Counted from the first letter of the stretch, positions 3,799-38,660 are shown. The stretch is DNA of 40,027 nucleotides from Betaproteobacteria bacterium (GCA_013298045.1 JAAFJI010000006.1:1-40027); one strand, 5' to 3'. Notes: generated by a model not told the origin, from the letters alone. Numbers and translations are program-made.

Positions 3799-3885
3799 AT
3801 GCCCCATAAAAAATACTTTTGGCGTATTAATTTAACAATTCGAGATTAAATGAAAAATTACTACAAATCATATTTGATGGGGCAT
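3799..3885. repeat. 87-bp AT-rich intergenic element (copy A)
   Basis: Perfect 9-bp ends ATGCCCCAT (3799-3807) / ATGGGGCAT (3877-3885). Confidence 0.75.
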
Positions 3886-3941
3886 AAATAGTAAGTGCTG
3901 GACGTCGAGCCTCATGCGATGTTCGTTCGACCGTGCGGGCA

Positions 3942-3967
3942 AAAAAAACCCGCGCGAGGCGGGTTGG
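3942..3967 (-). terminator. Rho-independent terminator
   Basis: Minus strand AACCCGC-ctcgc-GCGGGTTTTTTTT. Confidence 0.8.
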
Positions 3968-4100
3968 AGGGACTTTGCATGAATTCCGTGGAGGAAGTCG
4001 AAACACATGCGCGCGGCCAGTTATCGAAACAACGGCAGACGCGTGCCGACTTGGAGGAGGTCGGCGCGGCGACGCTCGGTTGAACGTCCCCATGAACCAT
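3942..4100 (-). ncRNA. candidate small RNA ending in a Rho-independent terminator, with CCUCC motifs
   Basis: Minus strand: hairpin GCCGAC-CTCCTCCAA-GTCGGC (4045-4065), further TTCCTCC and TCCCTCC motifs, then AACCCGCCTCGCGCGGGTTTTTTTT (terminator, about 3942-3967). The 5' boundary is not determined. Confidence 0.45.
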
Positions 4101-4197
4101 GAGTCGCGCAGGCGCGCAGCGAGGTTCACTGATAAAGACGCAGACGGTGCGCAAATTACGACAGGCGTATGTGTTTTTTTAGCGCGGGTTTTCCGCG

Positions 4198-7161
4198 TCA
4201 CATAAAGTAGAACCCGGGCAATGGATCGAGCAGGCGCGTGGCGTCCGGGTGTCCGAGCGCGCGCGCAAGCGCGTTGCGTGCCTGTCGCCGCGCCACCACG
4301 CTAGACGCGGGGTCGATCAACATCGCGACGTACTCGACCAGCGCGCGTGCGTAGTGGGTGTCCGGGAGGCCCGGCGGCAGCGACCTTCGCGCAGTTTCTA
4401 CTGCAACTTTCGCCGTCGCAGGCTCGGTGCCGGCAACTGCGAGCGCATATTCAAGATAACTGCCCACTACGCGTTGCGAGAAGCCGCCGCTTTGCGCCCT
4501 CGCTAAGCGATCGAGCGAGCTTTTGAGTGCCTCAGTGACATCGCGACCGCCCAGCCGCCGATCCATACTCGCCTCTGTGCGCTCAATGCGCCGCCGCCAC
4601 GGTCCGTCGGGCAGCGCAATCGCGAGTGCAATTGCACGTGCAGAAGCGAGAAGCTCACGCGCTGCTTCGGCGTCGCCGCAGGCATCGAGTATGACCGCGA
4701 GTCGGGTCTGAAGCCACACGCCGCGATCGCTCTGCGAGCGATCGAGCGCTGCAATTTGCGACGAAACCGCTTTCGCACTGGCCGCGTTGTCGGCAAGTGA
4801 GCGGCGGCCGAAGAACAACTGAATTTCGATTAAATCGATCTCGGTGCTCAGTTTGCGCAGCGGCTCGAAGTCCGGGAGCTGCTCTTGCAATGCGCGCAGT
4901 TCGGTGTAGGCGAGCTCCGCCTTCGCGCCTTCCCCCAAGCGGTAGTAGAGATAGCCCAGGTCGTTGAGCGCGTCGAACACCTGCGCGCTGCGCGAGCCGG
5001 CCAATCGTTGCCACGCTGCCCGCACTGCCAGCAGCCGCGCCTCCGCACCTTCGTAGCGACCGAGTACCGATTGCGCGCTCGCAATCGATTGTCGATTGTG
5101 CAGGGCCACTTTCTCCTGCCCGGGCGGCGGGGCGTTGTATAGCGCTTCGTTCTTCGACAGGATCGCGAAGGCGTCACCCCAGCGCCCCTGCGAGGTGAGG
5201 GCGCGGGCATAGTCGCCATCGGCTACGGCGCGCGCCCAACGATCGCTCGGTGCGTCCCCAAGCGCGGTGAAATAGGCCTGGAAAGCGCGCTCGCTCTCGT
5301 CGTGTTCCAGAAGTCTTGCGAGCGTATTGGCGTATCCCAGCTGTGCTGCACGCAGTCGGCCGTCGCCTGCTGCAAGCCGAGTGACGAGCGTAGGCAGCGC
5401 GAGCTCGTAGTTTGCGAGCGCCTCTCGTTCGCGCTCCAGCCAATAGAGCGTTTCGGCGAGCACCGCGCGCGCAAGCGCCGTTTCAATCGCGTTCGCGCCG
5501 TTGATGCGCTCCGAAATCTCAACCGCCCGCTGTGCGACCGGAAGCGCTTCGGTGTCCCTGGAAAGTGAACGAAAAGTTGATGCGAGCAACGAGGAGAGTC
5601 GAGCCTCGGTCGCTGGATCGTCGCGAAAACGGATGCCGACATCGGCCTTCGCCTGTTCGAGCAAACGCAGCGCCGTAGGCCAATCGCCGCCATGCAGATC
5701 GGGGTCTGCGTTCGCAAGCAGTTCGACCAGATAATCGGCGGTTTTGTTGGCGCGGCTTGCCTCAATTCTGGCGCGCTCGGCCTGCCAGATTGAAACACCG
5801 AGACCGCTGGTTAACGCGAGTACAAGTGTCGCGCCGAGAGTCGATGCAAGCCAATTGCGTCGCAACCATAGCCGCGCGCGGTAAGCGCGGTCCGTGCGTC
5901 GCGCAGCAATCGGGCGGCGCTCTGCGTAGCGCCGCAAGTCCGCCAGAAATTCGTCAACCGTGCGGTAGCGAGCCGTCGGATCGCGCCGCATCGCGCAGGC
6001 AAAGATCGCGTCTAAGTCGCCACCGATGCGCAGGGCGTCGCTCGGCGCTGCGAAATTGTCGACGGCCGCGACCTTCGACGGCGTACGCGCGGCCTCGGAA
6101 AGGCGCGCCGGATCCGTATGCAAAACGGCGTGTTCCAGCGCTGCTCGTCCTGCTTTTTCCGGAAGGTGTGCACGGTGTCCTGAAAGTAGATGGTAGCCGA
6201 GTGCGCCCAGCGAATAGACGTCGCTTGCAACGCCGGTTGCCTCACCTGTAATCTGCTCCGGCGCGGCGTATTCGATGGTCAATCCGCGTCCCGCAAGGCG
6301 CGTGGCAGCAGACTCGGTGGTCTCGTCTCGGTTTTCGCCGCCCAACAAACCGGCCACGCCAAAATCTAGCAATTTGACCTGTCCACTCTTCGTCACGAGC
6401 ACGTTCGAGGGCTTCAGATCGCGGTGCACAACCAGCTGAGTGTGCGCGTAAGACACCGCCTCGACAATCGATCGGAAAACGGTGAGTCGCGCATCCAGTG
6501 TGGGTGCGTGACCCACAAGATACTCGAGCAGCGGCATGCCTTCGACGTATTCCAACACCAAAAACGGATGTCCGAATTGCCGACCCGCGTCCAGCAGTCG
6601 CGCAATGCCCGGATGGTTGAGTCGGGCAAGAAGTAGCCGCTCCTGGGCGAATCGCGCCTCGAATGCATCCATGTTCGAGTCCGGGCGCAGGAACTTAACC
6701 GCCGCCTGAGCGCTATACAGACCGTCGGCGCGCTCGGCTAACCAAACCTCGCCCATACCACCTGTACCAATCACGCTTTTCAGTCGCCAAGCGCCGCAAA
6801 GCTCGCCTTGATAGCGCGCGCTCTTCAGCGCAGTGCGTTCCGCACGCAACGCACGTTGCAGCAGACCATCGAAGCCGCGCTCGGCCAGGGGCGTGCCGGG
6901 TTTGAAGACGGTTGCAAGTTCGGTGGTGAGTCCGCCGGCGTCCCGTCTTTCAGCGGTCGCACGATCGGGCGGCAGCGTGAGGTTGTCAGGAAGTCGCGTC
7001 AGCAGGCGTCTTACCTCGTCGCCGAGCGGCTCGCTCTCATCGGCGAGCGCGCTGAGAAACGCGACACGGTCGGCACCGTCGAGTTCGAGCGCTTGATCGA
7101 GCGCGTCGTTAACGCGTCGCCAATGTGCGGCATCGAAAGCCGTGTTGTTCGCCGGGATCAT
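4198..7161 (-). CDS. Hanks-type serine/threonine protein kinase with TM segment and C-terminal TPR-like region
   Basis: GTGGMGEVWLAER...AAVKFLR, VHRDLKPSNVLV, LLDFGVA, EYAAPEQITGE; TM LASTLGATLVLALTSGLGVSIW; helical repeat C-terminus. The likely start is the Met of MIPANNTAFDAAHW (7161). The ORF is open to 7314, but that would overlap the upstream sigma gene. Confidence 0.93.
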   Translation of the reverse strand: MIPANNTAFDAAHWRRVNDALDQALELDGADRVAFLSALADESEPLGDEVRRLLTRLPDNLTLPPDRATAERRDAGGLTTELATVFKPGTPLAERGFDGLLQRALRAERTALKSARYQGELCGAWRLKSVIGTGGMGEVWLAERADGLYSAQAAVKFLRPDSNMDAFEARFAQERLLLARLNHPGIARLLDAGRQFGHPFLVLEYVEGMPLLEYLVGHAPTLDARLTVFRSIVEAVSYAHTQLVVHRDLKPSNVLVTKSGQVKLLDFGVAGLLGGENRDETTESAATRLAGRGLTIEYAAPEQITGEATGVASDVYSLGALGYHLLSGHRAHLPEKAGRAALEHAVLHTDPARLSEAARTPSKVAAVDNFAAPSDALRIGGDLDAIFACAMRRDPTARYRTVDEFLADLRRYAERRPIAARRTDRAYRARLWLRRNWLASTLGATLVLALTSGLGVSIWQAERARIEASRANKTADYLVELLANADPDLHGGDWPTALRLLEQAKADVGIRFRDDPATEARLSSLLASTFRSLSRDTEALPVAQRAVEISERINGANAIETALARAVLAETLYWLEREREALANYELALPTLVTRLAAGDGRLRAAQLGYANTLARLLEHDESERAFQAYFTALGDAPSDRWARAVADGDYARALTSQGRWGDAFAILSKNEALYNAPPPGQEKVALHNRQSIASAQSVLGRYEGAEARLLAVRAAWQRLAGSRSAQVFDALNDLGYLYYRLGEGAKAELAYTELRALQEQLPDFEPLRKLSTEIDLIEIQLFFGRRSLADNAASAKAVSSQIAALDRSQSDRGVWLQTRLAVILDACGDAEAARELLASARAIALAIALPDGPWRRRIERTEASMDRRLGGRDVTEALKSSLDRLARAQSGGFSQRVVGSYLEYALAVAGTEPATAKVAVETARRSLPPGLPDTHYARALVEYVAMLIDPASSVVARRQARNALARALGHPDATRLLDPLPGFYFM

Positions 7162-7207
7162 CGGAAAGAAAGACGCTATCCGTTGAGAAAGAGCGACACC
7201 GTCGAAT

Positions 7208-7819
7208 TCACGCCGTGCCGAGTTCCAACCATTCGCCCAATAGTGCCCGAGCTTTGAGAATTTCGCGATTGACCGTGCGCGCCGACACCCCGCGCGCATC
7301 GGCCGTCTCTTCAATCGTCATCCCGCAGAAAAAATGCAATTCCGCCGTCTGGTACATCCCTTCGTCGATCTGTCTGAGCTGGGTCACGGCACGATCGAGC
7401 GCAATCACATCCACGGCCGGGATTGACGCATCGGCGGTTGCATCGGCATGCGAGAGTGTGAGCAAGGTCGCGCCGCCCCCGCGTTTCTCGGAATCACGTG
7501 CACGCACAAAGTCGATCACAATTGAGCGCAAGACTTTCCCGATATAGGCAAAAAACTGAACTCGCGTGTTGCCCTGCAATCCCTCGCGGTCGGCCATTCG
7601 CATGAATCCCTCGTGAACCAGCGCAGTCGCATTTAGCCCAGTGACACCGCCGGCTTGCGCAAGCCGCGCTCGCGCCACACGCTTGATTTCCGGATAAAGC
7701 AGCGCATAGAGCTCGCTCATTGCGCCGTCATCGCCTGCCGATGCGCGAGCGATCAATTCGGTTGCACCGATGCCCCTGGCGGCCGGTGCGCCCGAATTAT
7801 TCGCCGGTTGATCGACCAT
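7208..7819 (-). CDS. ECF-type RNA polymerase sigma factor (TIGR02999/ECF43-like)
   Basis: 203 aa, ATALVHEGFMRMAD, VQFFAYIGKVLRSIVIDFVRAR, MTIEETADARGVSARTVNREILKARALL; directly upstream of the kinase gene. Confidence 0.9.
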   Translation of the reverse strand: MVDQPANNSGAPAARGIGATELIARASAGDDGAMSELYALLYPEIKRVARARLAQAGGVTGLNATALVHEGFMRMADREGLQGNTRVQFFAYIGKVLRSIVIDFVRARDSEKRGGGATLLTLSHADATADASIPAVDVIALDRAVTQLRQIDEGMYQTAELHFFCGMTIEETADARGVSARTVNREILKARALLGEWLELGTA

Positions 7820-7901
7820 GTTCGCTTTTCCCCCAAAGTCCCGCGAGTTTATCCGTGCTGCGGCAGTTGTGCTCGCAGCGAGCCTCGCCCCTGGCGATCT
7901 T

Positions 7902-8663
7902 TCATTCGACGACAGAGCGCTGCCGGACTTCGCTTCCTACCGGTCGCGACACGCTTGCGTGACCGAACACCGGTCCGAGACCGACCCCGCGCAGCCGCTC
8001 GCGCAACACCCAGAGAATGAAAAGCCGCTCCATGAAATAACCCACGGCTCGTGCCTTGTTGTCGCGTGGACCTTTGGGTGACGGCAAGTCGAGGTAAGGA
8101 TGGCTCATCAGAAGCGATCGCGAGACCAGCGGCCACGACCAATTCATGTATCGCACAAAGTGCTCGGTGCTCATCACCCAGTAGTTTGCGTAGGGTACAA
8201 AACGCTCAAGATAAAAGCGCGATGAAACCTCGATCCCTGCCTCGGTCAGCACATCAACGATGAAATCGTGGATACCCGGATGATTTGCTTCCGAGTGACC
8301 GGCAAGTCCGGTGAGCCCACCGTAGTTCACACCTGCAAGATCCCAGACGTACCACGACAAGTAGTCGCCGCCCGCGAGCAGGCGTTCGACCTCGGCGACG
8401 CCCGAAAACACGACAGGCGTTTTCTCAAGCTGGCGGTATGACGTAAAGCCAATCCACGGCTCGGTGTGGCGATCCGGGTTGCGCCAGATGTGCAGCATCG
8501 CCCCGTACTCTGCAAGTGCCATTCGAACCCGAGGATCCGCGAGCTCGGGGCAGTTCCGCGTCAGCTGCGCATTGACTTCCGGCTCAAGTCCGAAACCGAC
8601 ATAGGGCGCATGACTGAACAATCGTGATCGATGCGCCGCATCAAAATAGCATTGGTAAATCAC
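7902..8663 (-). CDS. hypothetical protein (possibly glycan-biosynthesis/DUF4422-like)
   Basis: 253-aa ORF, MIYQCYFDAAHRSRLF...GYFMERLFILWVLRERL. The family call is a weak impression only. Confidence 0.6.
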   Translation of the reverse strand: MIYQCYFDAAHRSRLFSHAPYVGFGLEPEVNAQLTRNCPELADPRVRMALAEYGAMLHIWRNPDRHTEPWIGFTSYRQLEKTPVVFSGVAEVERLLAGGDYLSWYVWDLAGVNYGGLTGLAGHSEANHPGIHDFIVDVLTEAGIEVSSRFYLERFVPYANYWVMSTEHFVRYMNWSWPLVSRSLLMSHPYLDLPSPKGPRDNKARAVGYFMERLFILWVLRERLRGVGLGPVFGHASVSRPVGSEVRQRSVVE

Positions 8664-8696
8664 ACACGCAGAAGACCGATCCCGTGGTCGGCGTTC

Positions 8697-9770
8697 CTAA
8701 AGTTGCTCGGAGATGTATTTTCCCACTTCGACGGTCGTCGCGGTGCCGCCGAGATCAGCGGTTTTTGGTCCGATTGCCGTCGATTGCTCAATCGCGCGCA
8801 GAATCGCGTCGTGCGCCGTTTTGTGCCCTAACCATTCGAGCATCATCGCGCCACACCAGATTTGACCGATCGGATTGCAGACGCCTTTGCCAGCGATGTC
8901 CGGCGCGCTGCCGTGAACGGGTTCGAAGAGGGAGGGGAATTTGCGTTCGGGATTGATGTTCGCCGATGGCGCGATGCCGATGGTGCCGGTGCACGCGGGA
9001 CCTAAGTCGGAGAGGATGTCGCCGAAGAGATTACTCGCCACAACGACGTCGAAAAACGATGGACGTTGCACGAAATGCGCCGTCAAGATATCAATGTGAA
9101 ATTTGTCAACGTTGAGCCTGGGATATTTCGTTTGAATCTCGGCGACTCGCTCGTCCCAGTACGGCATCGAGATCGAGATGCCGTTTGATTTCGTTGCACT
9201 CGTCAGATGCTTTTTCGGACGCGATTGCGCGAGATCGAATGCGAATTTCAGAATGCGATCTACGCCAGTGCGCGTGAAGACGGATTCCTGCAGGACGAAT
9301 TCGCGATCGGTGCCACCAAACATGCGACCACCGACCGAGGAATATTCGCCTTCGGTGTTCTCGCGAACAATGTAGAAATCAATTTCGCCGGGTTTGTAAG
9401 GCGAACCATCCTTTTTGACAACAGGTGCGACTACGCCCGGCATTAACCGTGCTGGCCGCAAGTTCACGTATTGATCGAACTCGCGACGAAACAAAATCAA
9501 CGAGCCCCAGAGCGAAATATGGTCCGGAATTTTCTCGGGCCAACCGACAGCACCGAAATAGATCGCATCGTGTCCACCGATATGCGCTTTCCAGTCGTCG
9601 GGCATCATCTTGCCGTGTTTCTCGTAGTAGTCCCACGATGCAAAATCGAAGTGATCGAAGTGCAGTGGAATGTTGAACTTTTTGGCAGCGGCTTCGAGAA
9701 CGCGAATGCCCTCCGGCACGGTTTCTTTGCCGATGCCGTCGCCGGCGATAACTGCGATTCGTTTGGTCAT
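8697..9770 (-). CDS. tartrate dehydrogenase / D-malate dehydrogenase (decarboxylating), IMDH family
   Basis: 357 aa, MTKRIAVIAGDGIGKETVPEGIRVLEAAAKKF, YVNLRPARLMPGV, NLFGDILSDLGPACTGTIGIAPSANINPE, EPVHGSAPDIAGKG. Confidence 0.92.
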   Translation of the reverse strand: MTKRIAVIAGDGIGKETVPEGIRVLEAAAKKFNIPLHFDHFDFASWDYYEKHGKMMPDDWKAHIGGHDAIYFGAVGWPEKIPDHISLWGSLILFRREFDQYVNLRPARLMPGVVAPVVKKDGSPYKPGEIDFYIVRENTEGEYSSVGGRMFGGTDREFVLQESVFTRTGVDRILKFAFDLAQSRPKKHLTSATKSNGISISMPYWDERVAEIQTKYPRLNVDKFHIDILTAHFVQRPSFFDVVVASNLFGDILSDLGPACTGTIGIAPSANINPERKFPSLFEPVHGSAPDIAGKGVCNPIGQIWCGAMMLEWLGHKTAHDAILRAIEQSTAIGPKTADLGGTATTVEVGKYISEQL

Positions 9771-9799
9771 GGTGTGTTATGTCAAAAAATGAGAAGAGG

Positions 9800-9834
9800 G
9801 TAGGATGGGTATCGCTTCGCTCCACCCATCCTAC
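9800..9834. repeat. short palindromic repeat (hairpin)
   Basis: GTAGGATGGGT-atcgcttcgctcc-ACCCATCCTAC; a very common 'gtaggatgggt' bacterial interspersed repeat type. Confidence 0.75.
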
Positions 9835-10724
9835 GAATCGACCAAAAACGGTAGCGCTGCCTGCAATAGCGCCTCGGGATTTTCCTCGGGAATGTAGTGC
9901 CCGCAAGATACCGGTTGTCCGCGCACATCGGTCGCCACACGGTTCCATTCGTCGATCGGTTTGAAGCATTTCTCGATCACGCCATTCGCGCCCCAGATCA
10001 CTTGTAGCGGCTGCGACACTTTGCGCCCTGCATCGCGATCGGCTCGATCATGTTCGAGATCGATCGTCGCTGCGGCGCGATAGTCTTCGCAAATCGCGTG
10101 CGCAATGCCCGGCAATTGAATACAGCGCCGATATTCCGCGAGCGCTTCGGGCGCAAACGCCGAGAGCCCGGCGTGTCGATTTGCCATCATTCGCTCGATA
10201 AAAAACACAGGGTCACGCTCGATAAGCGCTTCTGGGAACGGTTCGCGTTGAATGAGAAAGAACCAGTGAAAATACGCCTTCGCAAACTCCATATTGGTTT
10301 GCTCATACATTGCAAGCGTCGGCGCGATATCCAAGAGCGTCGCGCGTTCGACCGCATGCGGATGATCCATCATCATGCGATGTGTCACCCGCGCGCCGCG
10401 ATCGTGCGCGAGCACTTTGAATTTAGTGAAACCGAACGACGCCATGAGTTCCACCATGTCTTTCGCCATCTCGCGTTTGCTGTAAGGCGCGTGATTTAGG
10501 CTCGCGTCGGACACTGGCTTATCGCTGTCGCCGTAGCCTCGCAAATCGGGCGCGACCAGCGTGAAGTGCTTCGCAAGCGCAAGCGCGACTTTGTGCCAAA
10601 TGACGTGGGTTTGCGGATGACCGTGCAGCAACAGCAGCGGCGGTTTGCCGCGCTCGTCGCTCACGCGCACGTTGAGCGCGATGCCGTTGGCGCGAATGCG
10701 ATGCAGACTTGTGTGTTCGAACAT
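9831..10724 (-). CDS. alpha/beta hydrolase, haloacetate dehalogenase-like
   Basis: LLLLHGHPQTHVIWHKVALALAKHFTLVAPDLRGYGDSDKP, nucleophile region AHDRGARVTHRMMMDHP, LDIAPTLAMY, AYFHWFFLIQ. Confidence 0.88.
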   Translation of the reverse strand: MFEHTSLHRIRANGIALNVRVSDERGKPPLLLLHGHPQTHVIWHKVALALAKHFTLVAPDLRGYGDSDKPVSDASLNHAPYSKREMAKDMVELMASFGFTKFKVLAHDRGARVTHRMMMDHPHAVERATLLDIAPTLAMYEQTNMEFAKAYFHWFFLIQREPFPEALIERDPVFFIERMMANRHAGLSAFAPEALAEYRRCIQLPGIAHAICEDYRAAATIDLEHDRADRDAGRKVSQPLQVIWGANGVIEKCFKPIDEWNRVATDVRGQPVSCGHYIPEENPEALLQAALPFLVDS

Positions 10725-10904
10725 GGCGCGGCGATGAAGTGGGATTTACGATCGTTGACGATGTTAAGAGCTTTCACGCAAATGCTCCGCTTGTCGATCT
10801 CGATTTTTGGCGGAACGATGCGCTGGACACTCGACCAAACTGTAACTGAGCCAGCGTGCAAAGTGGTTAAACTCATTTAACTTTTCAATTCAATTCGGCT
10901 TAAT

Positions 10905-11840
10905 ATGAGTACGATGCGCGAAACCGACGATCCGCGCTTTTTTCTCTGTATCTTTCGCGAAGGATCGCTCGCCGCGGCTGCGCGAGCGCTCAACGTCACC
11001 GCCTCGGCGGTGACGCAGCGATTGCAAGCGCTCGAAGCGAAACTCGGACTTCGTCTCATCGATCGCGCGGCGCGCAAATTCCAATTGACCGACGAGGGCG
11101 AACTCTATGTCGCGGAAGCGGAGAAAATCGTCGCGCAGTACGATGCGTTGATCGATGCATTGCACGCGCGGCGGTCGCTGGTACGCGGGCACTTGCGGGT
11201 GCGCGCAACATTTGGGTTCGGACGCAAATACTTAGCGCCCGCAGTCGCGGAGTTTCAGAAACTGCATCCGCAGATCAAAGCGAGTTTGAATCTCAGCGAT
11301 CGTTGGACAGAGACTGAAGAGACGAGCTACGACGTGCTTGTTCATATCGGTGGCTTGACCGATTCATCGCGCGTCGCTTTTCCGATTGCACGGAACGGGC
11401 GCTTTATGCTCGCAGCGCCGTCGTACTTAAGGCGTCGGGGTACGCCGAAATCGCCGGATGAACTCGCGAGGCATTCTTGCCTGCTTTTGCAAGAGAATGA
11501 CGAAGATGTTGGACTCTGGCGGTTGCGTAATGCACGTGGTCGGGAAGAGGCGATCCGCGTGCAAGCGAGTTTGCTCTCGAACGATGGCGATGCCATCAAA
11601 CAATGGGCACTAGCCGGATGCGGGATCATGCTGCGTTCTGAATGGGATACGGCGGCTGAAATCGCAAGCGGAAAGCTCGCGCGCGTGTTGCCAGAATGGA
11701 CATTACCGGAAGCAAACATCTACGCGCTGGTGCCGCAGCGCAAGGGACTCTCAACGCGCGCACGCGCCTTCATCGATTTTTTGTCGGCTCGTTTTCAGCC
11801 TGAACCGCCCTGGCAGCAGTCCAGGCGGAAGCCGAAATAG
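10905..11840 (+). CDS. LysR family transcriptional regulator
   Basis: N-terminal HTH REGSLAAAARALNVTASAVTQRLQALEAKLGLRLIDR; LysR substrate-binding C-terminus; divergent from the hydrolase gene. Confidence 0.95.
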   Translation: MSTMRETDDPRFFLCIFREGSLAAAARALNVTASAVTQRLQALEAKLGLRLIDRAARKFQLTDEGELYVAEAEKIVAQYDALIDALHARRSLVRGHLRVRATFGFGRKYLAPAVAEFQKLHPQIKASLNLSDRWTETEETSYDVLVHIGGLTDSSRVAFPIARNGRFMLAAPSYLRRRGTPKSPDELARHSCLLLQENDEDVGLWRLRNARGREEAIRVQASLLSNDGDAIKQWALAGCGIMLRSEWDTAAEIASGKLARVLPEWTLPEANIYALVPQRKGLSTRARAFIDFLSARFQPEPPWQQSRRKPK

Positions 11841-11852
11841 CACTGCAAATAT

Positions 11853-11940
11853 TTGCCCCATCAAAGCTTTGAATAAACACCGAAAACACTTATAACGATA
11901 TAGCGCAAAAGCGGGTTATGTTTCTTATTTGACGGGGCAA
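11853..11940. repeat. 88-bp AT-rich intergenic element (copy B)
   Basis: TTGCCCCATCAAA (11853-11865) / TTTGACGGGGCAA (11928-11940); 12 of 13 bases complementary. Confidence 0.75.
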
Positions 11941-13517: not shown

Positions 13518-13531
13518 GACTTGATCTCCGC

Positions 13532-20737: not shown

Positions 20738-20825
20738 AAGCCCAATAAAACGGAGCCGAAAGTCAAAATACATATTACACAAATATCGCGATAAGTGGCG
20801 AAAAATACCATATTCTTCGAGGCAT
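20738..20825. repeat. 88-bp AT-rich intergenic element (copy D)
   Basis: Left AAGCCCAATAAAAC, right ATATTCTTCGAGGCAT; arms weaker than A/B/G. Confidence 0.4.
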
Positions 20826-21340: not shown

Positions 21341-21529
21341 TAGGACGTCGCTACGCTAGGACGACGCGCTACGCGCTAAGACGTCGCTTCGGCAAGACGG
21401 AACAAAAGCCTCTGAAATTTCACGAGAGAGTTATGGATAAAGCAGAACAACGATTGCACAGCTTTGCGTCCTAGCACGCAGTGCGTCGTCCTAGCGCGAA
21501 GCGCGTCGTCTTAGCGAAGCGACGTCCTA
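21341..21529. repeat. long inverted repeat made of about 20-bp repeat units in the rpsO-pnp intergenic region
   Basis: Left arm TAGGACGTCGCTACGCTAGGACGACGCGCTACGCGCTAAGACG (from 21341). Right arm about 21467-21529 reads, in reverse complement, TAGGACGTCGCTTCGCTAAGACGACGCGCTTCGCGCTAGGACG. Confidence 0.85.
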
Positions 21530-21616
21530 GTGCGCGAGTCTCCGATCCAAATCAAGATTTCTTCACTGTCGTAACAACCCGCGCAAGACGCGCACTAAAA
21601 AGAAAGGTACCAGCCG

Positions 21617-25566: not shown

Positions 25567-25654
25567 TAGCCTCATAAAATATGTGCAAAATAATATAAAG
25601 CGGATATCTCGATGATGCGTACATTTGCGTTGAAAAGCAGAGTACAAAGGGCAA
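25567..25654. repeat. 88-bp AT-rich intergenic element (copy E)
   Basis: Left TAGCCTCATAAAATA (strong), right GTACAAAGGGCAA (weak). Confidence 0.4.
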
Positions 25655-29480: not shown

Positions 29481-30758
29481 TTACACCTGCTGCGGGAGCA
29501 GTTGAAAAACGCGCTGGGATTGTGCTAAGCGAACGCCGCTTTGTCGAAAGGCGGCGAGCAAAGCCGTGTGGATGCTCGAGCGCAGCGCGAGCTGCCCGTT
29601 CTCCGGATCGGCGATCCAGCACACCACCGTGAACTCGATGCCGTCAATGACGATCTCGGATACCAGTACGCCGGGTGCGGGATCTTTCAAAACACGAGTT
29701 TCGGCTGCCAGCACTGCGGAAATGAGTCCGCGTGCGAGCTCGACGTCGGTGCCGTGTTCGACGACAAGCTTGGTCGTTACCGCAACGCTTTTGTCGGACA
29801 GAGAGAAATGTTCGACGCGTTGCGTAATGAAGGTATCGTTCGGAATCACCGATTCGCGACCGTTCGCGGCGAGTACCACGGTATAGCGGGTATTGATCTG
29901 TGTGATTTTCCCCTCGAATCCGTCGAGCTTTACGTAGTCGCCTACACGAAAGCTCCCCTCAACCAGCATCGCAAAACCGCTGACATAGTTCGCCGCAATT
30001 TTTTGCAAACCCAGACCCAAGCCAACACCCAGCGCCCCGCCGAAAACCGACAGCACGGTGAGGTCGATGCCTACTGCCGCGAGCGATAGCAGCAGCGCAA
30101 GAACGAACAAGCCCGCGCGCACCAGCCGCGAAAGCAAAAGGCGCATGCTCACGTCAATGCGCGAGGCCATCAATCGAGCCTCGATCATGGTCGACACCCA
30201 GAGCGCACCAAGTAGCGTCACGGCAATCAGCGCGAGCCCTTGCAAAAGCGCGAGCACCGTGATCCGCGCTTTACCAATCGGCAACTCGGTTTGTTCCAGT
30301 TCGTGCGCGATGACCGGCCACAGGTCCGTGAGGTGTAGCACGAGCCCAATCCAGACCAGCACACTGGTGACGTTAATCAACAGTTGCGCAGGCGCAGAAG
30401 CTGGAAACATGGCACGCAGAACGCGCGCCACCGCTCGAATCGCAGTGAGCGAAGCGAACACCGGGACGGCCATTTTGAGAATTGCTCCCGTGCTTGCGCC
30501 GCCGATCGGCAGCACGCGACAGAGCCAGAGCAGGGCGCAGGTTACGAGCGGGAAGCTCACCCCGTAGAGCAGTGCCTGCGCGAGTGCATGTTTGCGCGAG
30601 ACGCCAGGCTTGCGTCTGCGGGCGACCAAAAACCCGACGATGATGCCGAGCACGATGGTCGCGGCAAGAAGAGCGATTTGTTGGCTCGCATGCGCATCGA
30701 AACGCGCGAGTTCGTCTAGGAGCTGCTGAAACGGCGAGTTCATGCCGACATTATCCAA
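29481..30758 (-). CDS. MscS-family mechanosensitive ion channel
   Basis: 425 aa, SVFGGALGVGLGLGLQKIAANYVSGFAMLVEGSFRVGDYVKLDGFEGKITQINTRYTVV...IPNDTFI. Confidence 0.95.
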   Translation of the reverse strand: MDNVGMNSPFQQLLDELARFDAHASQQIALLAATIVLGIIVGFLVARRRKPGVSRKHALAQALLYGVSFPLVTCALLWLCRVLPIGGASTGAILKMAVPVFASLTAIRAVARVLRAMFPASAPAQLLINVTSVLVWIGLVLHLTDLWPVIAHELEQTELPIGKARITVLALLQGLALIAVTLLGALWVSTMIEARLMASRIDVSMRLLLSRLVRAGLFVLALLLSLAAVGIDLTVLSVFGGALGVGLGLGLQKIAANYVSGFAMLVEGSFRVGDYVKLDGFEGKITQINTRYTVVLAANGRESVIPNDTFITQRVEHFSLSDKSVAVTTKLVVEHGTDVELARGLISAVLAAETRVLKDPAPGVLVSEIVIDGIEFTVVCWIADPENGQLALRSSIHTALLAAFRQSGVRLAQSQRVFQLLPQQV

Positions 30759-30805
30759 CGCATAGAATCGGAGGCATACCGTCGTATGGATATCTCCCTC
30801 TCGCC

Positions 30806-31225
30806 ATGTCGATTCAGCCCTTTCATCTCGCCTTCCCCACCCACGACCTCAACGCGAGCCGCGCGTTCTATCTGGATTTGCTCGGCTGCACGGAAGGTCG
30901 TGCCAGCGACCATTGGGTTGACTTCGATTTCTATGGTCATCAAATCGTGGCGCATCTCGCACCCGAGGAGTGTTCGATGGCAAAGACCAGCGATGTTGAC
31001 GGCGACAATGTGCCGTGCCGTCATTTCGGTGTGGTGCTCAACATGGAGCAATGGCACCAGCTCGCCGATCGGCTCAAAGCGGCAAAGACTGAATTCATTA
31101 TCGAGCCGCACATTCGTTTCAAGGGCGAGCCTGGGGAACAGGCGACGATGTTCTTTCTTGACCCCTCTGGAAACGCAATTGAGTTCAAGGCGTTCGAAAA
31201 CATGAGCAGCCTCTTTGCGAAGTAG
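30806..31225 (+). CDS. VOC family (glyoxalase-like) protein
   Basis: 139 aa, HLAFPTHDLNASRAFYLDLLGC...FFLDPSGNAIEFKAF. Confidence 0.93.
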   Translation: MSIQPFHLAFPTHDLNASRAFYLDLLGCTEGRASDHWVDFDFYGHQIVAHLAPEECSMAKTSDVDGDNVPCRHFGVVLNMEQWHQLADRLKAAKTEFIIEPHIRFKGEPGEQATMFFLDPSGNAIEFKAFENMSSLFAK

Positions 31226-31272
31226 ACGCATGTTGATCTTGCGCGAACTCGCTTTCCGTCGCTACGCCTCTC

Positions 31273-32238
31273 ATGCTTGAGTTCGCAGAGGTACAAGCCG
31301 CCGCTCGGCGCATTGCCGGTCATGCGCATCGAACGCCCATTCTCACGAGCCAGACGCTCAACGAGCGCCTTGGCTGTGAGGTGTTTTTGAAGGCAGAGAA
31401 TTTCCAGCGCATGGGCGCGTTTAAGTTTCGCGGCGGGTACAACGCAATCGCTGCGCTATCGCCCGAGGTTCGCGCCAGAGGTGTGGTCGCGTTTTCTTCG
31501 GGCAATCATGCGCAGGCTGTCGCACTGGCTGCGCGCTTGCATGGCATTGCCGCGACCATCGTTATGCCAAACGATGCGCCCGTACTCAAGATTGATGCGA
31601 CCCGGGGCTACGGCGCAAGTGTCGTGCTCTTTGATCGCTACACCGAGGATCGGGTCGCGATCGGCACGCGAATCGCGAGCGAAAAAGGCGCGACACTGAT
31701 TCCGCCGTTCGACTATTTGCCGGTCATGGCCGGTCAAGGTACGTGCGGGCTCGAAATTGCCGAAGAGCTGCCCAATCTCGATGCGCTGATCGTGTGTACC
31801 GGTGGCGGCGGTTTTCTCTCCGGCTGCACGGTTGCGATGAAAGCTCTGCAGCCGAATGTGAAGTGTTACGGTGCGGAGCCGCAAGCGGGCAACGATGTGC
31901 AGCAGTCGTTGGAGAAGGGTGAAATCGTCTCGATCGCGGTGCCGAAAACGATTTGCGACGGACAGCAAACACAAGCCGTTGGCGTACATCCGTTTGCTGT
32001 GATTCGCTCCCAGGTCGCAGGCGTGCTCACCGCTAGCGATGCGGCGGTGCTGGATGCGATGCGATTTGCGTTCGAGCGGATGAAGATTGTGCTCGAACCA
32101 TCGGGCGCGTGCGCATTGGCCGCGCTCACCGTCAATCGCGAAGCGTTTGTTGGCAAGCGCGTCGCGGTGACCCTCTCCGGAGGCAACATCGATCTCGCGC
32201 GCTTTGTGGCGCTCACCCAGCACACGTCGCAGCACTGA
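31273..32238 (+). CDS. PLP-dependent threonine/hydroxyaspartate dehydratase-like or serine racemase-like enzyme
   Basis: 321 aa, LKAENFQRMGAFKFRGGYNAI (PLP Lys), SSGNHAQAVALAA, TGGGGFLSG. Confidence 0.93.
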   Translation: MLEFAEVQAAARRIAGHAHRTPILTSQTLNERLGCEVFLKAENFQRMGAFKFRGGYNAIAALSPEVRARGVVAFSSGNHAQAVALAARLHGIAATIVMPNDAPVLKIDATRGYGASVVLFDRYTEDRVAIGTRIASEKGATLIPPFDYLPVMAGQGTCGLEIAEELPNLDALIVCTGGGGFLSGCTVAMKALQPNVKCYGAEPQAGNDVQQSLEKGEIVSIAVPKTICDGQQTQAVGVHPFAVIRSQVAGVLTASDAAVLDAMRFAFERMKIVLEPSGACALAALTVNREAFVGKRVAVTLSGGNIDLARFVALTQHTSQH

Positions 32239-32283
32239 CCGAGGATTCCACCGACAGTTGCAGGCAAACAGCTTTTCGCCGTT

Positions 32284-32371
32284 TTGCCCGATAAAATAAT
32301 GTGTATGTGTGATTTTAGTGAATACGCAATAAAATTTTAAAAATCAAAACTAAACATATTGAATGCGGCGA
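32284..32371. repeat. 88-bp AT-rich intergenic element (copy F)
   Basis: Left TTGCCCGATAAAATAAT, right ATATTGAATGCGGCGA. Confidence 0.55.
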
Positions 32372-32690
32372 TTGCTTGATAAGTTTATTGGTTGGTTCTT
32401 GCTGCGACGGTAAAACGCCGATGCTTCGTTGAGTGGATGCAGGCCGCGGTTGGCGGCACCGAGATCAGTGCGCCGCGCCCGCTCGTTTGTTGCAATTCGC
32501 GTAGCTGCAACAGGCGTAAACCGAATTTCATCGTCGATTGAGGCTGCCGCGAGAAACTCGCCAACAAACGCTAGTATTGATAGTCGCCGCGCGGCAAGCC
32601 CGCCGGGGCATTTGGCGGCGAGTGAGTGACGAAGTGCGCCGAGCGTACGGGCAGTTCCGCCGTAAGGCTTTGAAGTGAAAACGAAGTAAG

Positions 32691-33794
32691 GTGATTGATT
32701 CGATGGCGCAGCACTCCTCGGTCTATGACGAAGGCTACGATTCGCTCGACGTCAGCACGCGCGCGGCAATGGCCTACGTGCAGCAGCATCGACCGCGCTC
32801 AGAGCCGGCGAGGCTTGCGGAGCTTGCGCCGAAGATACCGCCCGAAGTGGCTCGAACGCTCATCGTTGCCGACACAGCGTGCGATTTGCCACAGGCATGG
32901 CTGGATCAACATTCGGTGTCGATCCTGCCGCGCAGCGTCCGCGTCGAAGGGCGCGAATTTCTCGAAACTCGTGCCAATACCAATGTGGTGAAGCTGCTCG
33001 ATCATTTCGCACGGGGCGGTGAAGCACCGTCGCAGAGCTTGCCGCTAGCCGCCGCTGCGATGCGCAACGAAATGCATCAGTGGCTCGGCGTCAATACCGA
33101 CTCGGTGCTTCTGCTTTGCCTGTCCGCGCGGCGCAGCCGGATGTACGTCAACGCACTTGCGGCCACCCAATCGCTCGTGCTCATTCACAACAAAGTACGT
33201 CGCCTCGCCGGAAATCGCGCACCGCTGACCGCGTGGGTGATCGACTCTGCAAACGCCCTCGGGGGTGTCGGCGTTTTGCTGTCGCACGCCGTGCGCTTGC
33301 GCGAATCCGGCATGATGCCGGCGAATATCGCGGTGACGCTTAATACCTTTCGCAACAGCGTTCACACCCTGGTTGCGCCACATGACATGGCATTCGTCGC
33401 ACGTAGCGCACGCAGCATCGAGCACCGACCGATCGCGGGCTGGAAGGTCAGCCTGGCGACGCTGCTCGATTTCAAGCCGATTTTGCATTTCAATGCGGAT
33501 CGGGTGGCTGCCATTGCTCGGGTTCGAGGGCAGCTACGTGCGGTGGAGGACGTTCTGACGCGATTGATGCATGTCGTCGAGGCTGGCGCGCTTGCCACGC
33601 CTTTCATAGCGCTGAGCTATGCCGGAAAACTCGAAGACATTGAAAGTCTGCAGAGCTACAAAGTGCTGCGTGCCTGGTGTAATCGTCATCAAATTGCGAT
33701 GTCGCTCACCATGATGAGCGCCACTGGCGTGCTGATGTTGGGTCCGCGCGCGCTTGCCGCAAGCTTTGCGAGCCAGCAATTCCGCGGCGAGTAA
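32691..33794 (+). CDS. DegV family protein
   Basis: 367 aa, TLIVADTACDLPQAWLDQHSVSILPRSVRVEGREFLE...; start codon uncertain (possibly 32703). Confidence 0.85.
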   Translation: MIDSMAQHSSVYDEGYDSLDVSTRAAMAYVQQHRPRSEPARLAELAPKIPPEVARTLIVADTACDLPQAWLDQHSVSILPRSVRVEGREFLETRANTNVVKLLDHFARGGEAPSQSLPLAAAAMRNEMHQWLGVNTDSVLLLCLSARRSRMYVNALAATQSLVLIHNKVRRLAGNRAPLTAWVIDSANALGGVGVLLSHAVRLRESGMMPANIAVTLNTFRNSVHTLVAPHDMAFVARSARSIEHRPIAGWKVSLATLLDFKPILHFNADRVAAIARVRGQLRAVEDVLTRLMHVVEAGALATPFIALSYAGKLEDIESLQSYKVLRAWCNRHQIAMSLTMMSATGVLMLGPRALAASFASQQFRGE

Positions 33795-33826
33795 ATCGCA
33801 CCGGTGAATTGGTTGCGCACTAGAAT

Positions 33827-34756
33827 TTGCCGATGAACGCACACCCGCCCATTCGCCTAATTGGCGCACCGACCGACATTGGCGCGGGCTCGCGCGGCGC
33901 TTCAATGGGCCCCGAGGCGATGCGCGTCGCGGGTATCGCCGCAGCGCTTGAAGCGCGCGGTTTGACGGTCTACGACGACGGTAATCTGGTCGGTCCGCCC
34001 AATCCGTGGCTACCGCCCGCCGATGGCTATCGGCATTTGCCGGAAGTGCTCGCCTGGAACGCGGCGGTGCGCGACGCGGTGCGCGATGCACTGCGTGCCA
34101 AAGAGTTCCCGATGCTGCTCGGTGGCGACCATTGTCTTGCGATCGGCTCGATCACCGCTGTTGCCGCGCATTGTCGCGAGCAGAAGAAAAATTTGCGAAT
34201 CTTGTGGCTCGACGCCCACGCCGATTTCAATACCAGCGCAATTACGCCGTCCGGCAACATTCACGGGATGCCGGTGGCGACGTTATGCGGCTTCGGTGCT
34301 GCGGCGCTTGTGAATCTTGCAAATCCGGCGCCTGCGATTCGACCGAGCGAAATTTCGCAGATCGGCATTCGCAGCGTCGACGAACATGAAAAGCGCTTCG
34401 TCAACGAGCAAGGGCTTGAAGTGTTCGACATGCGCTCGATCGACGAGCTCGGCATGCGAACGGTGATGCAAGACGCACTACATGACATTGACGATAACAC
34501 CCATCTACATGTGAGCTTCGATGTCGATTTTCTCGACCCCGATATTGCGCCAGGGGTTGGCACAACAGTGCGCGGTGGGCCGAACTACCGCGAAGCGCAG
34601 CTCTGTATGGAAATGATTGCCGACACGGGGCGGCTTGCGTCGCTCGATTTGATGGAGCTCAATCCAGCACTAGACGAGAAAAATCGCACGGCCGAACTGG
34701 CGCTCGACCTCATCGAGAGCCTATTCGGCAAATCGACGCTGATGCGCGAACGCTGA
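33827..34756 (+). CDS. rocF: arginase
   Basis: 309 aa, GGDHCLAIGSI, WLDAHADFNTSAITPSGNIHGMPVA, SFDVDFLDPDIAPGVGTTVRGG. Confidence 0.95.
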   Translation: MPMNAHPPIRLIGAPTDIGAGSRGASMGPEAMRVAGIAAALEARGLTVYDDGNLVGPPNPWLPPADGYRHLPEVLAWNAAVRDAVRDALRAKEFPMLLGGDHCLAIGSITAVAAHCREQKKNLRILWLDAHADFNTSAITPSGNIHGMPVATLCGFGAAALVNLANPAPAIRPSEISQIGIRSVDEHEKRFVNEQGLEVFDMRSIDELGMRTVMQDALHDIDDNTHLHVSFDVDFLDPDIAPGVGTTVRGGPNYREAQLCMEMIADTGRLASLDLMELNPALDEKNRTAELALDLIESLFGKSTLMRER

Positions 34757-34902
34757 GCGGGTGGGTCGGTTCTCGCCGCGCCCAGCGCGCGGTACGGGTG
34801 TTGCGTGAAGTTAGACATTTGTGGGCGGTGATTAAGTCGCGAGGGCGCGTTTTTGACACGTGACGCAAATTACTGCTGCCGCCGCAGTAACTTCATAAAG
34901 CT

Positions 34903-34989
34903 TTGCCCCTATAAATAAGGTGCCCAATAAGAGAAAAATCAATTAAACTGGTCAATTAAACTTTCAAAAAGTTATATTTAATGGGGCAT
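34903..34989. repeat. 87-bp AT-rich intergenic element (copy G)
   Basis: Left TTGCCCCTATAAATA, right TATTTAATGGGGCAT. Confidence 0.7.
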
Positions 34990-35035
34990 ACACTGTAAAA
35001 GCTGTTGTTGCGCAAAGGCTGTTTATAATCACAGT

Positions 35036-36169
35036 ATGCGTGATGCCTCGTCCTCGTCTCCGCCGCCGCACAACGCATCCTTCGTTCAGAAAGGACGCGG
35101 CGCAACGCTCAACATGCCCGGTCGCTTCGAATCGCGTGAGGTGGAATCGATCTACGATGGTTGGTACAGCGCAGCGCCTGGGGCCGAAAACTCGGCGCAC
35201 GAAACGCGGGCAAAGACCGTGATTCACATCGAGAATGCGCGATCGATCATCTCGAAGAACGATTCGCCAGATATCCGATTCGACCAGTCGTTAAACCCGT
35301 ATCGCGGTTGCGAACATGGTTGCATTTATTGCTATGCGCGGCCGTCTCATGGGTACGTCAATCTCTCGCCCGGCATCGATTTCGAAACGCAACTCTTTGC
35401 CAAACGAAACGCCGCCGAACTGCTACGCAAGGAAATTTCGAAGAAAAACTACGTGCCTTCGCCGATCAATTTCGGGGCCAATACCGATCCGTATCAACCG
35501 ATCGAGCGCGTCGAGAAAATAACGCGTGCCTGCCTCGAGGTGTTGCTCGAAGCGAATCACCCGCTCACCATCGTGACTAAAAGCGCACTTGTCACGCGAG
35601 ATATCGATCTGCTCGCCGCGTTTGCCGAGAAGCGGCTGGTCAACGTCTTTGTTTCGATCTCGCAACTCGATAACGAACTCACGCGTATCCTCGAGCCGCG
35701 TGCAAGCACACCCGCGCGTCGTTTGCACGCGGTGCAAGCGCTCGCCGCTGTCGGCGTGCCAACCTGCGTGTTGGTCGCGCCGATCATTCCGTTCATCAAC
35801 GACGAATATCTGGAGCGCGTGCTCGAGGCGTCGAAGGAGGCCGGCGCAGTCGCCGCGAGCTACACGATTCTGCGCCTACCCTACGAGGTAAAAACGCTGT
35901 TCAAGGATTGGCTCGCGCAGCACTTTCCCGATCGCGCTGAGCACGTCATGAATCGCGTCCGCGATATGAAAAATGGTCGCGACAACGTGTCCGAGTTCGG
36001 TCTCCGGATGCGCGGCAGTGGCGTGTACGCCGACTTGATTCGCCAACGATTTCGCAAAACCTGTGCGCGTCTCGATCTGCGTGCTGAAAACCTGGTCAAG
36101 CTCGATGTCGCGGCGTTCCGCGCGCCGCGCACCGACGCCTGCGATCCCGCGCAAGCCTCGCTGTTTTGA
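35036..36169 (+). CDS. PA0069 family radical SAM protein (SplB-like)
   Basis: 377 aa, NPYRGCEHGCIYCYARPSHGYVNLSPGIDFETQLFAK. Confidence 0.95.
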   Translation: MRDASSSSPPPHNASFVQKGRGATLNMPGRFESREVESIYDGWYSAAPGAENSAHETRAKTVIHIENARSIISKNDSPDIRFDQSLNPYRGCEHGCIYCYARPSHGYVNLSPGIDFETQLFAKRNAAELLRKEISKKNYVPSPINFGANTDPYQPIERVEKITRACLEVLLEANHPLTIVTKSALVTRDIDLLAAFAEKRLVNVFVSISQLDNELTRILEPRASTPARRLHAVQALAAVGVPTCVLVAPIIPFINDEYLERVLEASKEAGAVAASYTILRLPYEVKTLFKDWLAQHFPDRAEHVMNRVRDMKNGRDNVSEFGLRMRGSGVYADLIRQRFRKTCARLDLRAENLVKLDVAAFRAPRTDACDPAQASLF

Positions 36170-36335
36170 GCGGACTGTCACGGTTGACCGCGCGGGCGCG
36201 ACTCGAACGGCTCGCGCGTGACGCCCGCACGCGTCGCGAAGGACAATTTCGCATTGTGACGAAATAACGATTCGTGCATTCGTTTATTCCAAAACAGAAT
36301 GATAGTGAGCGAGTGATCGATTTCACAATGCTCGC

Positions 36336-38051
36336 ATGTATCAGTACACCGATTTCGATCAAACGATCGTGGACGAGCGGGTCGCGCAGTTTCGCAACCA
36401 GACAGAGCGCTTTCTTTCGGGCGCGCTCTCGGAAGACGAGTTCCGTCCGCTTCGCCTGCAAAATGGGCTCTACGTGCAAAAGCACGCGCCGATGCTGCGC
36501 GTCGCAATTCCGTACGGCCTGCTCAACACGAAGCAGCTGCGAATGTTCGCGCACATCGCGCGCACTTACGACCGCTGCTACGCGCACTTCACCACGCGCC
36601 AGAACATTCAGTACAACTGGCCGGCGCTCGCCCGCGTGCCCGACATCTTGGCCGATCTCGCGAGCGTACAAATGCACGCGATTCAAACAAGCGGCAACTG
36701 CATTCGCAACACGACGACCGATCAGTTTGCGGGCGTCGCACCGGATGAAGTCGTCAATCCCCTCATCTGGGCCGAGATCATCCGGCAGTGGAGCACGATT
36801 CATCCGGAGTTTGCGTACTTGCCGCGCAAATTCAAAATCGCCATCAGCGGCTCCCGCGAAGATCGCGCGGCGATTCTGGTGCATGACATCGGCCTGCAAG
36901 CAACGCGGGACGCAAACGGACAGATCGGCTTTCGCGTCGCAGTCGGCGGCGGTCTCGGGCGCACGCCGGTGGTGGGTGTCGTCATCAAGGAATTCCTGCC
37001 GTGGCAGCACCTGATCACCTACCTTGAGGCGATCCTGCGTGTGTACAACTTGACCGGTCGTCGCGACAACAAGTACAAAGCGCGCATCAAGATCACGGTG
37101 AAAGAAACCGGTGTCGCCGAGTTCGCCAAGCGCGTGGACGCCGAGTTCGCGAGAAACGAAAACGGTGCCACACGACTCAGCGACGTCCAGGTCGATGAAG
37201 TCGCCGCGCGTTTCAGCGCAGCCACCTATCTCGACTTACCGCAGGACGATGCAATCGTCGTTACGCTTGCCGCGAGCAACAATGCCTTCGCTCGCTGGCT
37301 CAAACGCAATACCCATCCCCACCGTGTTGCGGGATACGCCGCTGTCAGCCTGTCGCTCAAGCGAAAGGGCGTACCGCCGGGCGATGTGACCGCCAACGAA
37401 ATGGAGGCGATCGCCGCGCTCGCGGATCGCTACGCGCAGGGCGAGCTTCGCGTCACGCACGAACAGAACCTGGTGTTCGCCGATGTCGAACAGCGGGCGC
37501 TGCCCGAGCTCTGGCGCGAGCTTGACGCACTGGGTTTTGCGACGGCGAACATCGGACTCATCGGCAACATCATCGCCTGTCCAGGCGGCGATTTCTGTTC
37601 GCTTGCCAACGCCGTGAGCATCCCTGTTGCCCAGGCGATTCACGAACGCTTCGAGTCCCTCGACTATCAGTTCGACATTGGCGAACTTGACTTAAACATT
37701 TCGGGCTGTATCAACGCCTGCGGTCATCATCACGTCGGCCACATCGGCATTCTCGGCGTCGATAAGAACGGCGAAGAGTGGTATCAGGTCACCATCGGCG
37801 GCGCGCAGAGCATCGCGCAGGGCGGTGCCGACAGTGGTTTAGCCGCAAGCGAAGCTCTCTCGCAGCGCACCGCGCGCATCGGAAAAATCATCGGACCATC
37901 GTTTGCGCGGGCCGACGTGCCCGAGGTGGTCGAAAAACTCATTCAAACCTATCTCGGAGCGCGCGAGCGCGACGACGAACGCTTCGTCGACGTGGTCGCG
38001 CGGATTGGAATCGAGCCATTTAAGGAAAACGTATATGCCGAAACTCATTGA
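36336..38051 (+). CDS. cysI: nitrite/sulfite reductase, hemoprotein (CysI-type)
   Basis: 571 aa, TTRQNIQYNWP, NCIRNTTTDQFAGVAPDE, NIIACPGGDFCSLANA, LNISGCINACGHHHVGHIGILGV (siroheme/4Fe-4S). Confidence 0.95.
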   Translation: MYQYTDFDQTIVDERVAQFRNQTERFLSGALSEDEFRPLRLQNGLYVQKHAPMLRVAIPYGLLNTKQLRMFAHIARTYDRCYAHFTTRQNIQYNWPALARVPDILADLASVQMHAIQTSGNCIRNTTTDQFAGVAPDEVVNPLIWAEIIRQWSTIHPEFAYLPRKFKIAISGSREDRAAILVHDIGLQATRDANGQIGFRVAVGGGLGRTPVVGVVIKEFLPWQHLITYLEAILRVYNLTGRRDNKYKARIKITVKETGVAEFAKRVDAEFARNENGATRLSDVQVDEVAARFSAATYLDLPQDDAIVVTLAASNNAFARWLKRNTHPHRVAGYAAVSLSLKRKGVPPGDVTANEMEAIAALADRYAQGELRVTHEQNLVFADVEQRALPELWRELDALGFATANIGLIGNIIACPGGDFCSLANAVSIPVAQAIHERFESLDYQFDIGELDLNISGCINACGHHHVGHIGILGVDKNGEEWYQVTIGGAQSIAQGGADSGLAASEALSQRTARIGKIIGPSFARADVPEVVEKLIQTYLGARERDDERFVDVVARIGIEPFKENVYAETH

Positions 38052-38541
38052 CTCACACGGCGTACGCCTGAACGATCCCTGGCTCACCTATGCCGGAGAT
38101 GCCCACGCGATCGCTGCGGGCAGCTGCGTGATTCTGCCGCTCACCGAATTTCGCGAATTTGCCGGTACGTGGAAGAACCATGCCAAGGCAATTGGCGTCT
38201 TGCTGTCACCGTCGGACGACCCGGCGGCCATCGCGGGCGATTTCGATAAGTTGCGTGTGATTGCGATCGACTTTCCGAGCTTTACCGACGGACGCGGCTA
38301 TTCGCTCGCGCATCAGCTTCGCGAACGCCACGGCTGGACCGGCGAGCTTCGCGCGGTCGGCGACATTCAGCGCGACCAAATCGATCTGCTCTCGCGTGCG
38401 GGATTCGACACGTTCGGCTTGCGAGACGACCAGGATGCGGCGATTGCACTCACCGGGTTGAAGGATTTTTCGATTGCCTACCAATACAGTGCCGGTCGTC
38501 GCACGCCGCGTGTCGCACTGAACGGGCAGCTCACGCGCTGA
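38035..38541 (+). CDS. DUF934 domain-containing protein
   Basis: MPKLIDSHGVRLNDPW...DFPSFTDGRGYSLAHQLRERHGWTGELRAVGDIQRDQIDLLSRAGFDTF. ATG at 38035 overlaps the cysI stop codon. Confidence 0.92.
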   Translation: MPKLIDSHGVRLNDPWLTYAGDAHAIAAGSCVILPLTEFREFAGTWKNHAKAIGVLLSPSDDPAAIAGDFDKLRVIAIDFPSFTDGRGYSLAHQLRERHGWTGELRAVGDIQRDQIDLLSRAGFDTFGLRDDQDAAIALTGLKDFSIAYQYSAGRRTPRVALNGQLTR

Positions 38542-38572
38542 ATTGGCGGCGATCTCGTAGCTTTGTGCAAAA

Positions 38573-38660
38573 ATGCCTCATAAAATAATATTTATGTGGA
38601 ATAAATCTTAGCTATTGAGAAGTCGCAAAATACATGTTCAGAGCTTTATCCGATGCGGCT
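38573..38660. repeat. 88-bp AT-rich intergenic element (copy H)
   Basis: Left ATGCCTCATAAAATAATA (strong), right TTTATCCGATGCGGCT (weaker). Confidence 0.45.

Follow-up and report, generated by a model that had tools for sequence, protein, structure and literature searches.

The stretch of DNA analysed here (the window; 40,027 nt) comes from an uncultured member of the Burkholderiales, whose own genome assembly (G000) holds 3.7 Mb in 346 contigs. Between its genes, among them a dsbB-like gene, the PNPase gene and an rlmN-like radical SAM gene, lie ten copies of a dispersed element, which are given here with their scores from a PWM trained on 58 copies, all outside the window.

44..131, unstranded: tenth copy, missed by the sequence-only reading; 62.2 bits with the leave-window-out PWM; 88-bp core, the conserved unit reaching ~17 bp further on each side
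3799..3885, unstranded: copy A, with the best arms in the window (1 mismatch in total); 52.4 bits
11853..11940, unstranded: copy B; 62.9 bits
15805..15892, unstranded: copy C, in a register 1 bp to the left of that first reported; 66.7 bits
19922..20009, unstranded: copy I, in the gap upstream of the dsbB-like gene; 50.2 bits; orthologous gap of G007 and G002 occupied
20738..20825, unstranded: copy D; 50.5 bits; matching intervals of G007 and G002 occupied
25567..25654, unstranded: copy E; 56.9 bits; orthologous gap of G007, G002 and G010 occupied
32284..32371, unstranded: copy F, the top score; 78.2 bits
34902..34989, unstranded: copy G, upstream of the rlmN-like radical SAM gene; 33.1 bits; corresponding gap of G007, G002 and G010 occupied
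38573..38660, unstranded: copy H, between convergent genes; 31.4 bits

Copies I and D are merely 816 bp apart. The sequence-only reading had reported the nine blocks A to I, and all nine are present where it placed them, the register agreeing within 1 bp and the scores (31–78 bits) standing against a best shuffled-window score of 14.8 in 20 shuffles. Genome-wide in G000, the arm TGCCYCATNAAATA has 470 matches with at most two mismatches, compared to 31 for the reversed control. An excess of arm pairs spaced 86–89 bp had been set beforehand as the result on which the family should stand or fall, and it is found: in 388 kb of G000, 18 of the 23 pairs with at most four mismatches in total are spaced 87–89 bp, as are 34 of the 72 pairs with at most six, the remaining spacings being background. 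A symmetric PWM applied to the same 388 kb finds 68 copies, against four when the sequence is reversed and none after local Markov shuffling. This extrapolates to ~650 copies in G000, and element-bearing genomes carry roughly 300–700 each. The spacing test and the reversed and shuffled controls answer the worry, voiced when the blocks were first described, that their constant length was partly a product of how the weaker copies had been sought.

The block of 87–88 bp originally described does have a fixed arm spacing, but it is the inner part of a larger conserved unit of ~121 bp that is two-fold symmetric and sharply bounded, with conservation running from −16 to 105 in the register of the 88-mer and none beyond. 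From its outer AACAGCTTTT the unit passes through an arm palindrome into an interior where AT content peaks at ~10-bp intervals, and ends at the dyad centre TATCGATA; spelled out from the edge inward, AAYARCTTTT is followed by a few free bases, WTGCCYCATNAAATA, the ~10-base AT maxima and the dyad TATC/GATA. The maxima lie about 3.5, 12.5, 22.5, 31.5, 43.5 and 53.5 bp to either side of the dyad; GC-rich positions fall mostly in between, the conserved GC-bearing ones being TCGA at the dyad, GGGC at ±26, GCC at ±40 and AGC at ±56. The ~10-bp phasing of AT is significant by block permutation both without the arm palindromes (p 0.0005) and with them (p 0.013); the fitted period is 9.9–10.3 bp, from broad fits. 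The interior had been called AT-rich and impossible to align, and it indeed carries no sign of common descent, but in view of this phasing and of the dyad it is not featureless. The symmetric ~121-bp architecture is constant in five species with large samples and in two more with a different arm dialect. A built-in orientation, suspected at first from differences between the two arms, is not upheld: a symmetric matrix fits the copies, and in tandem gaps they show no strand bias relative to gene direction.

Within a genome, interiors are as alike as column-shuffled copies (identity 0.374 versus 0.370), and the closest pair among the 68–83 copies per genome reaches an identity of 0.59–0.67. Across five species and 278 copies, the two arms show no covariation (pooled z 1.4), and Rfam holds no match to the element. 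Within the arms, a weak hairpin signal at centre 11 (z 3.5) is accompanied by similar values at other centres and was not taken as structure. Between orthologous copies, any descent signal is saturated (identity 0.371 versus 0.356, p 0.05). Since the interiors behave like column shuffles, with no close pairs and no compensatory changes, the copies appear to be independent realisations of one positional preference. Such a pattern is what a DNA-binding complex would select and not what mobile repeats or RNA stems would leave, and the lack of arm–arm covariation suggests that the site acts as DNA, not RNA.

The positions of the copies are shared between relatives. The comparison of orthologous gaps that the sequence-only reading had proposed gives, for G007 and G002, 21 gaps occupied in both genomes, eight in one and 56 in neither (p 5e-13), and the G000/G007 and G000/G002 comparisons show the same trend. 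Copies lie a median of 30–57 nt from stop codons and 104–147 nt from starts, and they are enriched between convergent genes (in G007, for example, 20 of the 31 convergent gaps over 110 bp are occupied). Occupied gaps are ~115–125 bp longer than their unoccupied orthologues, relative to controls, which may reflect gain and loss of the element as a unit or, in part, a selection effect of the room it requires. That all copies are non-coding holds within the window but not beyond it: regions of cross-species protein homology are overlapped by ~10%–15% of copies in three genomes (8–12 of 72–85) and by none in two. The overlapping copies include high scorers at places where the interval would otherwise be ~11–15 kb, as on the C12 contigs of G007 and G002 (e.g., G007 289994–290082). 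Intrinsic terminators are about equally frequent with and without an element, and the idea that the element replaces terminators was dropped.

Spacing is the most informative property of the family. Against a null that drew eligible gaps at random, with weights for context and size, the elements avoid one another and are evenly laid out. The coefficient of variation (CV) of spacing is 0.50 versus 0.87 expected in G007 and 0.29 versus 0.77 in G010 (0 of 4000 in both), 0.69 versus 0.89 in G002 (p 0.009), and 0.66 versus 0.83 in G000, where the signal is weak (p 0.04); in G005, all elements keep at least 2.5 kb from one another (p 0.01). Median spacing is 5–6 kb in G000, G002 and G007, 8 kb in G010 and ~10 kb in G005. 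Sites in G005 are distributed all round the chromosome, with the origin placed at position 1 by dnaA-dnaN-gyrB, and matches at 1.9–2.95 Mb rule out a restriction to the origin half or an exclusion from ter. The sole large element-free hole, 104 kb in G005 (C1 ~110–215 kb, L243–L248), is an integrative conjugative element: besides conjugation proteins (TraC and TraG/TraD-type), it encodes a type IA topoisomerase and a Tn3 transposase as well as proteins resembling HerA and SNF2.

The element is found in 15 of the 17 genomes of one Burkholderiales genus, with 48–384 copies by a pattern free of arm sequence and 0–10 for the reversed control. The same arm-free pattern stays at background level in the other two genomes of the genus (G009 and G016) and in six sister genera, sampled by 47 genomes; the arm-containing pattern, the one used for another ~235 genomes of Burkholderiales, is at background there as well. 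Viral contigs, phages and plasmids yielded no copies at the sensitivity used. Strict patterns missed most relatives, owing to low sensitivity and to differences in dialect: length, architecture and dyad are the same across relatives, and the arms differ. They read GCCYCATNAAATA in G000, GCCTTATGAAATAAGGGC in G010 and GCCCAATTTAATTGGGC in G007; they are dominated by GGGCTAG in G002; G005 (type I) has GGGCTT with the centre GTCGAC, and G008 and G012 (type II) have AACGACC..GGTCGTT. G003 is probably of type II too. Species thus use dialects as different as GCCCAAT/ATTGGGC and AACGACC/GGTCGTT on an unchanged scaffold. One copy in G011 is a hybrid with an arm of each type, type II and mosaic copies are also present in G005, and three G008/G005 pairs have matching positions and different arms (type II and type I, respectively). 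In a tree of RlmN, G009 and G016 form an outgroup clade, so that a single gain (or a single loss) of the element suffices, and G012, of type II, has the type I genomes G005 and G011 as its neighbours, which indicates that dialects can change over short distances.

Of the explanations that the sequence-only reading had offered, the protein clamp or wrap is supported by the fixed length in seven species, the sharp edges at about ±60 bp, the ~10-bp AT phasing and the base-specific GC contacts between AT maxima; the recombinase or cassette substrate and the structured RNA are not supported. The sites are flanked by syntenic core genes of vertical inheritance, their arms lack pairing covariation, and no copies are near-identical, which argues against a cassette and, in particular, against integron attC sites with pairing arms. 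From the phased bending signal and the symmetric, bounded length we infer that each element is a site in double-stranded DNA, ~121 bp long, occupied by a sequence-specific, multimeric and two-fold symmetric protein or complex. The DNA would be bent or wrapped along the surface of the protein, much as it is in a nucleosome, with AT-rich minor grooves facing inward at the maxima given above and base-specific contacts mostly between them, at the dyad TCGA and the GGGC, GCC and AGC positions. It seems to us quite probable that a dedicated multimeric protein reads the element as a nucleoprotein wrapping site. The ~300–700 particles per chromosome, one per ~5–10 kb and preferably just behind gene ends, could then serve as regularly spaced anchors that partition the chromosome into loops or supercoil domains, shield adjacent transcription units from one another, or do both. 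A role as regularly spaced anchor or insulator is a tentative assignment, to which we give somewhat less than even weight. It draws support from enterobacterial supercoil domains, which average ~10 kb (range 2–66 kb; PMC3820752), the same order as the element spacing of 5–10 kb. Under the same reading, the part of the protein that reads the arms would have shifted its specificity during the history of the genus, with the sites following suit. Taken as a whole, a protein-read wrapping site acting as a regularly spaced anchor strikes us as evenly poised between right and wrong. No reader candidate emerged among the proteins considered (histone fold, H-NS and GyrA). No histone-fold protein was found, and H-NS has the wrong pattern, with H-NS-type genes in both element-free genomes of the genus yet in only four of the 15 element-bearing ones; they also occur in one of the 47 sister-genus genomes.

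The even spacing, the dialects and the absence from acquired DNA are common to DNA-uptake sequences too, and to that extent count against an anchor. As a reason for the sites to exist, the strongest rival is an uptake or species-recognition signal, in which the element would mark self DNA for a competence or other import receptor and would spread by biased uptake and recombination among kin, so that individual sites would need no chromosomal function. The DUS and USS of Neisseriaceae and Pasteurellaceae likewise come in hundreds of copies with dialects that follow the lineage (PMC3630211), and they are evenly spaced according to a passage of PMC1939737 that refers to Karlin et al.; in our data, the lack of orientation relative to genes, the location often near gene ends and the absence of elements from the integrative conjugative element of G005 would also suit such a signal. 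However, DUS and USS are short and asymmetric (a core of 9–12 bp, or ~31 bp for USS with flanking AT tracts) and often intragenic, with 35%–65% in coding sequence, whereas the element is 121 bp long and symmetric, with a dyad and ten-bp phasing, and is mostly intergenic, with the coding overlap described above. We consider this rival improbable. Another rival is that the elements are preferred sites of DNA gyrase, similar to BIMEs. Gyrase takes up ~130 bp in a symmetric wrap and works downstream of genes, and its E. coli motif, with GC phasing of ~10.75 bp against the 9.9–10.3 bp fitted here, is found at transcript ends (PMC6379681). That motif, strong gyrase sites and BIME-2 share with the element a length of ~120–130 bp, two-fold symmetry, ~10-bp phasing and an intergenic location downstream of genes, here near stop codons and in convergent gaps. 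In most genomes of the family, GyrA is also the single type IIA A-subunit, ParC being absent (GyrA loci L308–L337), suggesting that gyrase does the decatenation as well. Yet the GyrA C-terminal domain (CTD) keeps 96% identity between element-bearing species of different dialects and 90.5% identity with that of element-free genomes, and the length of GyrA is ordinary. With a CTD that hardly varies while the arms do, gyrase cannot be the reader of the dialects. The element motif is also far stronger and more base-specific than gyrase's degenerate preference, is confined to one genus and recurs at regular intervals. Gyrase cleavage centres prefer A four bases from the centre (PMC12324340; cleavage-centre bases −2A/+6T, −4G/+8C); at that position G000 has T, against the preference, though G005 has −2A, in agreement with it. 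Gyrase sites are, in our judgement, more doubtful still than an uptake code.

An ancient mobile family of the REPIN or MITE type, its ends kept by transposase recognition, would explain inverted ends and a fixed spacer length, which the element shares with REPINs (PMC3116915), as well as occupied gaps that are longer by about one element. REPINs and REP doublets, known with RAYTs from Pseudomonas and E. coli, are similarly intergenic, number in the hundreds and have fixed-length, variable spacers, and Y1 transposase-like genes are present in exactly the 15 element-bearing members of the genus and absent from G009 and G016. This tracking of the element by Y1_Tnp (RAYT-like) genes in all 17 genomes is an unexplained co-occurrence. 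REPIN spacers, though, are hairpin-capable with compensatory changes, and the mobile doublets are highly conserved. The element instead forms a phased 121-bp unit at conserved positions, without covariation and without any pair among 68–83 copies above 60%–67% identity, and its interiors lack shared ancestry. Orthologous positions are kept while the dialect changes genome-wide, a shift that transposition could achieve only by homogenising the interiors. Nor do the 13 Y1 loci compared have elements at their flanks beyond background, nine lacking one within ~2 kb and four having one ~2 kb away. The failure of the descent, covariation and Y1-flanking tests leads us to reject a decayed MITE or REPIN (the sequence-only reading had called the constant length unusual for a decayed MITE) and gives the mobile-family reading very little probability. 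We think it equally improbable that the element is a structured RNA, a protein-dependent terminator or a 3′-end processing element. Sites 30–60 nt behind stop codons would fit such a role, but the Rfam and covariation results, the absence of strand bias relative to genes and the equal frequency of intrinsic terminators with or without the element all speak against it. A bidirectional protein roadblock is possible as a variant of the wrapped anchor.

Two further known systems bear comparison with a wrapped anchor. The matS sites of MatP, together with ~10-kb supercoil domains, offer a precedent for dispersed specific sites of an architectural protein (the role proposed here for the putative reader) and for domain-like spacing. 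However, matS is 13 bp long and confined to Ter, and the element is ten times longer and found all round the chromosome. Nucleosome positioning sequences and Lrp-type wrapping sites share the dyad and the AT minor grooves every ~10 bp; the element differs from them in its ~121-bp length and base-specific arms, and in the lack of a histone-fold protein in our searches. A search of open-access full text, a scope that leaves out most subscription journals, returned nothing matching the element. No family with which it was compared has all of its properties, and the claim that it is of a new kind is limited to the open-access literature.

Whether bacterial supercoil domains have fixed, sequence-defined boundaries is a long-standing question, the published domains having stochastic ends. 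From the sequence alone, candidate boundaries emerge here in the hundreds for each genome, spaced about as far apart as supercoil domains are long. It may be that these are lineage-specific, sequence-encoded and nucleosome-like anchors, one per ~5–10 kb, which set the boundaries of loops or supercoil domains, and that their reader switches specificity and drags several hundred sites along; we offer this fuller picture as speculative, with the weight somewhat against it. The switch of dialect at shared positions is also a rare natural experiment on the co-evolution of a DNA-binding protein with hundreds of targets. If the element were a code for uptake or self-recognition instead, its form would be without precedent, and we know of no such code outside the Neisseriaceae and Pasteurellaceae.

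Some other repeats were seen in passing. Internally repeated local sequence at ~21–24.7 kb of G005 and at L089 2240–3615 probably belongs to a repeat-protein gene. In the window, positions 21341–21534, upstream of the PNPase gene, hold dense nested inverted repeats of the TAGGACGTCGCTACGC / GCGACGTCCTA type, with 47-nt arms that are 89% complementary, which fall outside the element family.
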